From Streptomyces albus subsp. albus (GTDB lineage: Bacteria > Actinomycetota > Actinomycetes > Streptomycetales > Streptomycetaceae), in NCBI RefSeq assembly GCF_000719865.1, contig NZ_JOID01000002.1:1-64000 (forward strand): a DNA stretch of 64,000 nt, in the 5' to 3' direction. The notes below the pieces were generated by a model. It ran no database searches, was not told the origin of the DNA, and worked only from the letters and a program-made list of their open reading frames with translations. How positions within the stretch are numbered: position 1 is the stretch's first letter; the number at the start of each line of letters is the position of its first letter. The translations under genes were made by a program, and so were the position numbers. This document shows positions 29,763 through 31,264 of the stretch, piece by piece.

Positions 29763-29995
29763 CCGCCGAAGTCTCGCATCCCCCACCGACAGCCGCGGCG
29801 GACCCCCGCGCCCGGTGCGGCGGTCGCCGCCGCGGGGTGGGTCCGGCCGGGCGCGGGACGACCGCGCCGCCGGGGCCGTACCCGGGGGCTGTGCCTCGTG
29901 CCGGTCCGGGCCCCGCACCGGGCCTGTCTCCGGTGTCCGGCCGGTGCCGTGCGTTCCGTGCCCGGTCCGGTCCGGCGTCCCGTGAACGTGGCGGA

Positions 29996-30023
29996 GCCCG
30001 GGAGTCGTATCCAGCTCCCGGGC
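29996..30023 (-). terminator. Terminator after the tRNA-like pair
   Basis: GCCCGGGAG and CTCCCGGGC form a perfect 9-bp stem with a 10-base loop, 58 bases past the second tRNA-like unit on the minus strand. Confidence 0.6.
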
Positions 30024-30080
30024 CCCTGGGGATGCCACCCAATTGCGCACGCCGATGGCGTTTAAGAGGACGGGTCAGTC

Positions 30081-30158
30081 ATGAAGCCGTCGTGTTCTGC
30101 CTTTGAACTACCGCACCGCGAGAGGTGCAGGCGAGAGTTGAACTCGCATCCGACGGCG
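30081..30158 (-). tRNA. tRNA-like unit 2, 3' half before 5' half (circularly permuted layout)
   Basis: On the minus strand the order is: anticodon-stem 3' strand CCGTC (30156-30152), T-arm GCGAG-TTCAACT-CTCGC (30147-30131), acceptor 3' strand CTGCACC (30130-30124), 6-base linker TCTCGC, acceptor 5' strand GGTGCGG (30117-30111), TA, D-arm GTTC-AAAGGCA-GAAC (30108-30094), and anticodon-stem 5' strand GACGG (30091-30087). The acceptor pairs 7/7 with one G-U and the anticodon stem 5/5. The T-loop TTCAACT fits the consensus. A normal-order tRNA cannot be built from these halves. The loop after GACGG begins CTTCATG, so the anticodon is uncertain. A flanking ACGGG/CCCGT helix could extend the anticodon stem in a precursor. 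Confidence 0.5.
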
Positions 30159-30221
30159 TGTGCCCGTTCTCGGTCGATCCGGCGATCGGTGGCGATGCTG
30201 AAGCTGGAGCGAGAGTCTGAG

Positions 30222-30324
30222 ATTGAGCGCGGCTGCCTCTGCCGGTTGGGCCACCCCGGCCCGTGGTCCCCATGGGGACGTTGTGCCGGGGGGAAGGACT
30301 CGAACCTTCACTGACACCGCTTCT
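30222..30324 (-). tRNA. tRNA-like unit 1, 3' half before 5' half (circularly permuted layout)
   Basis: On the minus strand the order is: anticodon-stem 3' strand GCGGT (30320-30316), T-arm GAAGG-TTCGAGT-CCTTC (30309-30293), acceptor 3' strand CCCCGGC (30291-30285), a 24-base linker containing the palindrome GTCCCCATGGGGAC, acceptor 5' strand GCCGGGG (30260-30254), TG, a canonical D-arm GCCCAACCGGCAGAGGC (30251-30235), and anticodon-stem 5' strand GCCGC (30233-30229). The acceptor pairs 7/7 (with one extra C beside the T-stem) and the anticodon stem 5/5 with one G-U. The loop after GCCGC reads GCTCAAT; the anticodon is not assignable with confidence. Confidence 0.5.
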
Positions 30325-30398
30325 TCAGGCTGAACTTCAGTTTCAGCTTGCGCTCCGCGCGCGGACCGGTCCTCACCCGGCCCACGCCTGGTCGCGCA

Positions 30399-31180: not shown

Positions 31181-31264
31181 TGCGTCCCCCCCTTCGAACG
31201 GGTAGGAACGTACCGCATCGCACACACCCGGGCGCCAGCGATTTTCGGGCCGCCGGCCGGGCCG

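Follow-up and report, generated by a model that had tools for sequence, protein, structure and literature searches.

A stretch of Streptomyces albus subsp. albus DNA holds two adjacent tRNA-like units in which the 3′ half precedes the 5′ half. Are they a pair of circularly permuted tRNA genes, of the kind known from algae and archaea, or parts of something else? An initial annotation of the 64,000-base stretch analysed here (the window) had favoured the first reading, with a bacterial permuted pair that would need cutting in the anticodon region and ligation, and had left open that the units are pseudogenes. Here we find that the permuted order of the halves is real, paired and conserved. Comparison of many related sequences points to a real RNA structure with two tRNA mimics, not to two permuted tRNA genes.

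The RNA element downstream of DUF7873

Both units lie on the minus strand, in the order T-arm, acceptor 3′ strand, loop, acceptor 5′ strand, D-arm. They are parts of one RNA of about 300 nucleotides directly downstream of a DUF7873 gene (Table 1). We refer to the unit with the 24-base loop (unit 1 of the initial annotation) as module A and to the unit with the 6-base loop (unit 2) as module B. Read along the minus strand, the DUF7873 gene is followed by a leader array, module A, a linker array, module B enclosed in an outer helix, a UUAAACG box and an end hairpin. The conserved RNA spans about 30350 to 30059 and the end hairpin reaches down to 29994; the span of 30071 to 30330 originally given to the units contains both of them but cuts off both ends of the RNA. 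A detector for the permuted pattern, run over both strands of the window, returned exactly two places, modules A and B. ARAGORN and Rfam at gathering cut-offs reported only two ordinary tRNAs in the window, at 23 kb and 47 kb, and nothing at the locus.

Table 1 Features of the DUF7873 cassette in the window, listed in minus-strand order.
Feature	Position	Strand	Remarks
Presumed promoter region of the cassette	31181..31250	-	Extent judged from relatives; upstream motif conserved in relatives
DUF7873 gene (PF25283), GTG start, 243 aa	30449..31180	-	Pfam 2.8e-121
Leader hexamer array, four UNA motifs six bases apart (30345, 30339, 30333, 30327)	30325..30347	-	
Module A with flanking stem GCGGT/GCCGC	30229..30320	-	T-arm 30309-30293, capped acceptor 30291-30254, D-arm ~30253-30235
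Linker hexamer array UCA...UCA...UCU...UCC...UCA	30199..30226	-	Alignments: well conserved, without predicted pairs
Module B outer helix, 5′ strand	30163..30171	-	9 pairs, compensatory changes in all
Module B, Y-RNA-like	30094..30147	-	T-arm 30147-30131, capped acceptor 30130-30111, D-arm 30108-30094
Tail UNA motifs (UCA 30084, UGA 30077)	30075..30084	-	Alignments
Module B outer helix, 3′ strand (approximate)	30068..30078	-	Covariation
UUAAACG box	30059..30065	-	Conserved in unselected tails of other alignments
Terminal GC-rich hairpin, loop CTGGATACGA, cassette end	29994..30025	-	Similarity of closest unrelated-flank pairs ends at or just past the hairpin

The acceptors pair at all seven positions in both modules, as had been described. 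In module A, CCCCGGC (30291-30285) faces GCCGGGG (30260-30254); in module B, CTGCACC (30130-30124) faces GGTGCGG (30117-30111) with one G-U pair. The T-stems are GAAGG (30309-30305) with CCTTC (30297-30293) in module A and GCGAG (30147-30143) with CTCGC (30135-30131) in module B. The extra base that had been remarked beside the T-stem of module A is indeed present (C at 30292); it is missing from the aligned close relatives (L004-L007) and so appears to be local to this genome. The module A cap in the window, 24 bases (30284-30261) with a small hairpin of its own, is unlike that of most relatives. The loop of the end hairpin recurs, as CTGGATACGA in the window and CGGATATG in several phages, and exceeds the needs of a plain terminator. 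When folded as a single sequence the region did no better than shuffles (z -0.28), and the evidence for the RNA is therefore comparative.

Conservation and covariation of the two modules

A DNA search of this genome and 60 relatives found the region in 31 of the 61. Two larger sets were collected through DUF7873, namely the best 80 of 554 Streptomyces loci and the best 80 of 329 viral contigs, and eight phage records (of 73 phage records with DUF7873) and one Nonomuraea record were added. Rows for module B were chosen by the linker core and the UUAAACG box, without using pairing, and all 32 loci so picked carry the module. Rows for module A were chosen, likewise without using pairing, by the linker core and a T-loop word. 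Structure alignment A2 leaves out ten viral loci (L174, L184, L188, L196, L203, L210, L214, L229, L230 and L231), exclusions that were made after a stop codon had been found in L184. Alignment A4 is restricted to segments of at most 185 bases and has the UUAAACG box as its selection anchor, so that the invariance of the box there is by choice. Of the 42 loci picked for alignment A5, one that has no module A, L071, was left out, and redundant rows (85 percent) were removed from both A4 and A5.

Compensatory changes, a check that the initial annotation had proposed, were found in both modules. For module B and its outer helix, 23 of 25 predicted pairs show two-sided changes (33 rows including the window), and pairing is seen in 230 of 231 acceptor cells and 165 of 165 T-stem cells. 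For module A the figure is 12 of 15 pairs (42 rows). Nearly all rows of the two modules retain the tRNA elbow signature (U8, G18 G19 and a UUCRA T-loop). The linker measures 103-121 bases in 119 of 120 pairs (pre-filtered to 95-130). The modules are paired and conserved across loci, and they are not the debris of pseudogenes. The anticodon stem that had been drawn across each unit can be seen in the window. Among the helices of module B it has the least support, with 13 to 20 of 31-33 rows paired (register tested).

Module A is exchangeable. It was undetected in 24 of the 80 Streptomyces loci and in 3 of the 30 relatives, which makes 27 of 110 bacterial loci; three more of the 110 are without the linker word and stand outside this count. 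Module B was detected in all 27. The 23 different inserts that were printed at the place of module A nearly all fold into a plain hairpin, flanked by the leader and linker motifs as in the other loci, the exceptions being L148, which folds weakly, and L071, which has no insert. That a hairpin can take the place of module A favours an architectural arm over a tRNA gene, and the absence of module A from the detected features of 24 of 80 Streptomyces loci indicates that two arms are not essential.

The most distinctive part of the RNA is the array of UNA motifs at six-base spacing. At least four leader motifs with a spacing of six or seven occur in 34 of 39 non-redundant two-module loci (picked by the detector for both modules), compared with a mean of 0.13 and a maximum of 2 in 500 shuffles, and the hexamers are also seen in printed loci without module A. 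The middle base of UNA varies freely, and the variable bases of leader and linker show no covariation (22 loci), which points to recognition by a protein and not to pairing. The hexamer array suggests a regular protein-RNA assembly.

At the position that the discriminator base and CCA take up in a tRNA, right behind the acceptor 3′ strand, 16 of 42 module A rows have NCCA, as do 10 of 33 module B rows; the corresponding values for shuffled loops are 1.9 and 0.8. The module A cases comprise 14 of 31 phage rows and 2 of 11 bacterial rows; those of module B comprise 10 of 26 phage rows and no bacterial row. Both modules of the window lack NCCA. Among the ordinary tRNA genes of the phage loci, a CCA end is found in 46 of 317. 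The motif may reflect ancestry from a true tRNA, or it may mean that tRNA processing enzymes open the caps, as happens in permuted tmRNA.

Linkage to DUF7873 in bacteria and phages

DUF7873 is present in 32 of the 61 genomes (this genome and 60 relatives), with 33 genes. R1, a covariance model built from module B, gave 33 matches of at least 55 bits. They are confined to these 32 genomes and reach every one of them, and each match is next to one of the 33 genes (strict filters; six of the 33 places are training rows). In the 29 genomes that lack DUF7873, no match exceeded 52 bits. In a phylum sample of 396 genomes, the 7 with DUF7873 all belong to the genus of the window; the family also occurs in order-mates, in a Nonomuraea and in the control genome Deinobacterium chartae.

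The linkage extends to phages. At least 52 bits were reached with R1 in 74 of the 80 viral loci, or, after removal of the 23 training rows, in 51 of 57, some of which are near-duplicates; the six that R1 misses are L164, L165, L188, L189, L196 and L225, the last of which is cut off. The pattern detector returned both modules in 35 of the 80, one in 32 and none in 13, and, among the nine named loci (eight phage, one Nonomuraea), two units in five, one in three and none in one. Both modules were detected in Arthrobacter phage Mimi, Gordonia phage Phendrix and Rhodococcus phage NiceHouse; for Gordonia phage Ziko and Pseudanabaena phage Pam2 the detector returned one module and R1 marks both places. 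Divergent loci of a Rhizobium and a Vibrio phage (L038 and L039) score 44 and 32 bits, and the Microcoleus phage locus L040 has no R1 match downstream of DUF7873. Other arrangements were also seen. The RNA is inverted in viral contig L214 (5080-4956, minus strand) and lies upstream of DUF7873 in L227 (2790-2910); a HEARO RNA (129 bits, L040 3950-4159) lies directly downstream of DUF7873 in Microcoleus phage My-WqHQDG; and Gordonia phage Phendrix seems to encode a tmRNA (L034 1072-1600, Rfam 89 bits) that is absent from the annotated features shown. ARAGORN was run on 60 of the 80 viral loci; in 33 of them one or more tRNA calls lie within 3 kb, and in 26 two or more. The nearest upstream tRNA gene is a tRNA-Lys in twelve loci (L162, L167, L170, L175, L177, L178, L181, L183, L185, L190, L194 and L207), some of whose phages are close relatives.

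In Streptomyces the gene and the RNA recur together in changing surroundings. All 64 Streptomyces loci of at least 8 kb matched 970 to 1,241 of the 1,241 cassette bases, counted from upstream of DUF7873 to the end hairpin, and in 61 of them the match takes in 250 or more bases of the RNA part. None of the 64 matched the flanks of the window, in a flank test that included a positive control and that, working at the nucleotide level, may miss old synteny. Shared flanks sort these loci into 22 groups, the largest with 20 and 17 members. In the twelve closest printed pairs with unrelated flanks, similarity extends from 26-159 bp before the start codon to 1134-1207 bp after it; over all 2,636 pairs, the median start is 3 bp before the start codon and the median end 1138 bp after it. 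The DUF7873 gene and the RNA thus look like a self-contained cassette. Some 30-90 bp before the DUF7873 start, Streptomyces loci L073-L152 carry a conserved promoter-like pattern, in many loci GAATAATCGTTCGA, about 20 bases and then TGCTANNGT.

The protein matches the DUF7873 Pfam family at 404 bits (cut-off 27). Its predicted structure (mean pLDDT 93.8, pTM 0.69) has long helices and a long beta hairpin at residues 151-190, in and around which lies a conserved RTKKVP...ATxKHPAQ stretch. Structural libraries including the PDB gave no clear fold match and NCBIfam, PHROGs and PADLOC no matching family, so that RNA binding by DUF7873 is a guess from linkage. Of 7,999 candidates scored, 7,477 were relatives. 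DUF7873 is not named in any paper of the literature searched, and its RNA linkage offers a handle on an unstudied family.

Candidate function and relation to known systems

The RNA and DUF7873 almost certainly form a functional unit. We think it probable that the element is one structured non-coding RNA of about 300 nucleotides that works with DUF7873, as a ribonucleoprotein scaffold presenting tRNA elbows. Several DUF7873 protomers would sit side by side on the UNA hexamers and organise the RNA; linkage and regular spacing tip the balance slightly in favour of such binding. The two modules would then protrude and be read as tRNA elbows, elbow mimicry being the probable working principle. A tRNA-binding enzyme would thereby be recruited or kept busy, for which PNPase (as with YrlA), a tRNA-modifying enzyme, RNase P or a tRNA-cutting toxin are candidates, each of them a long shot when named singly. 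In phages, where the cassette is often near tRNA genes, it would serve infection, and Streptomyces would keep it as a cassette that changes place. In a more specific version, which we consider unlikely, a two-armed ribonucleoprotein coated with DUF7873 would present permuted tRNA bodies whose caps RNase P and 3′ processing could open, at least in the phage copies, in which NCCA often adjoins the cap, leaving two-piece ends that could be charged or sensed. If true, this would be a new class of tRNA-mimic ribonucleoprotein, common to phages and bacteria and independent of Ro.

A compact cassette that is found in many surroundings, is common to phages and bacteria and is patchy among relatives (32 of 61) could also be a toxin-antitoxin, defence or counter-defence system, with the RNA restraining or arming DUF7873. 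PADLOC gave no match, however, the protein has no recognised fold, and the RNA comes after the gene, unlike in type III systems; we regard this explanation as rather unlikely.

Module B has the features of a Y RNA, being a permuted tRNA-like module closed by an outer stem, and with 28.6 bits (E 0.001) it matches Rfam YrlA (RF02553) from end to end, short of the gathering score (69). The nine phage and Nonomuraea loci gave six YrlA matches, of which five fall on module B; these matches, in five of the nine loci, score 27.9-37.1 bits, all below 69. In PMC11472068, bacterial Y RNA superposes on tRNA with circular permutation in three dimensions, and PMC8394870 describes the YrlA module as modified by tRNA enzymes and bound to PNPase, with the stem binding Rsr; elbow mimicry by the same topology is known for YrlA from both sources. 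As YrlA is reported from several phages (PMC7765460), others may have seen module B.

These likenesses allow the locus to be read as a classical bacterial Y RNA locus, in which module B would be a YrlA serving Ro/Rsr and module A a second Y RNA. The whole-model match in the window and those in five of the nine phage and Nonomuraea loci fit this, and the TROVE-linked Y RNAs of other Streptomyces share the same module. Against it, every YrlA match here is below the gathering score, and no TROVE (Ro/Rsr) match was found in the genome of the window or in 10 of 32 DUF7873-bearing genomes; the TROVE matches listed for the remaining ones span only about 65 of the 442 profile positions. In 17 genomes a weaker R1 match lies 0.9-1.2 kb from a TROVE match, presumably an Rsr-linked Y RNA of other Streptomyces. 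These TROVE-linked modules reach at most 52 bits with R1, and the three TROVE-linked stretches checked have neither a UNA array nor a UUAAACG box. We judge a classical Y RNA locus improbable. Eight TROVE loci with 1.5-kb flanks, searched with Rfam, gave YrlA in one (L240, 43 bits). Three TROVE-linked Y RNAs have two modules about 230-250 nt apart (L240 272-379 and 530-588; L257 1708-1770 and 1477-1531; L260 1669-1725 and 1418-1492).

As circularly permuted tRNA genes, the units would be circularised near the anticodon by cutting and ligation and lose the acceptor loop, to give two working tRNAs. The order of the halves fits, as does the pairing of the acceptor and of the T- and D-stems, NCCA after the acceptor 3′ strand exceeds shuffles, and the genome has two RtcB genes, a ligase whose presence had been proposed as a check but which fails to separate the readings. 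The bacterial loci in which module A is undetected, mostly with a hairpin instead, tell against such genes, as do the poor conservation of the anticodon-like helix and the linkage to DUF7873. The would-be anticodon strands run into the conserved hexamer arrays and share no anticodon loop, so that the proposal of a pair needing cutting and ligation is unsupported and has, in our estimate, very little chance of being right. The two RtcB genes (L001 and L002) are on different contigs of the genome. An artefact of tandem tRNA genes, with the 3′ end of a first gene and the 5′ end of its neighbour mimicking a permuted unit, can practically be dismissed: tandem identical tRNA-Asn genes do give 46-bit R1 matches (two loci checked), a warning against permuted artefacts, but no tRNA gene lies at the locus, R1 scores 103 bits here (a training row), and acceptor pairs that co-vary within each module already contradict it.

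An RNA with two tRNA mimics and a constant DUF7873 partner has apparently not been described before, and no Rfam model reaches its cut-off on the RNA in the window; a protein-RNA machine may thus have been overlooked. Its parts recall several known systems. With permuted tRNA genes the modules share the 3′ half in first place, a short intervening loop and, in many phage copies, NCCA at the junction; they differ in having no shared anticodon loop, in lying inside a longer conserved RNA and in that module A is replaceable by a hairpin. In the precursor of permuted two-piece tmRNA, a loop joins the 3′ and 5′ acceptor strands of the tRNA-like domain. The modules are similar in this respect, but there are two of them and the G3-U70 pair is not conserved (1 of 42 module A rows). 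TRAP targets and Cas7-bound crRNA present spaced short motifs to ring or filament proteins, and a short motif at fixed spacing, as expected for adjacent protomers, is also found here; the period of six with UNA is different, and DUF7873 has no clear structural match to TRAP- or Cas7-type proteins. Type III toxin-antitoxin systems, in which a repeat RNA lies upstream of a ToxN-like nuclease gene, were considered and rejected as a class for this cassette, whose RNA is downstream of the gene and which has no PADLOC match. With YrlA, module B shares the permuted tRNA-like module, the capped acceptor, the D- and T-arms and the outer stem, whereas two modules per RNA, the UNA arrays, the UUAAACG box, the adjacent DUF7873, a genome in which no Ro/Rsr was found and a score below the cut-off set the element apart. 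In bacteria, Y RNAs with their Ro partner are the known case of permuted tRNA mimicry. Here the fold occurs twice in one RNA, is tied to another protein family and is carried both by Streptomyces chromosomes and by phages that infect different hosts, and a cassette of 1.25 kb makes the role of tRNA mimics in bacteria and phages genetically testable.
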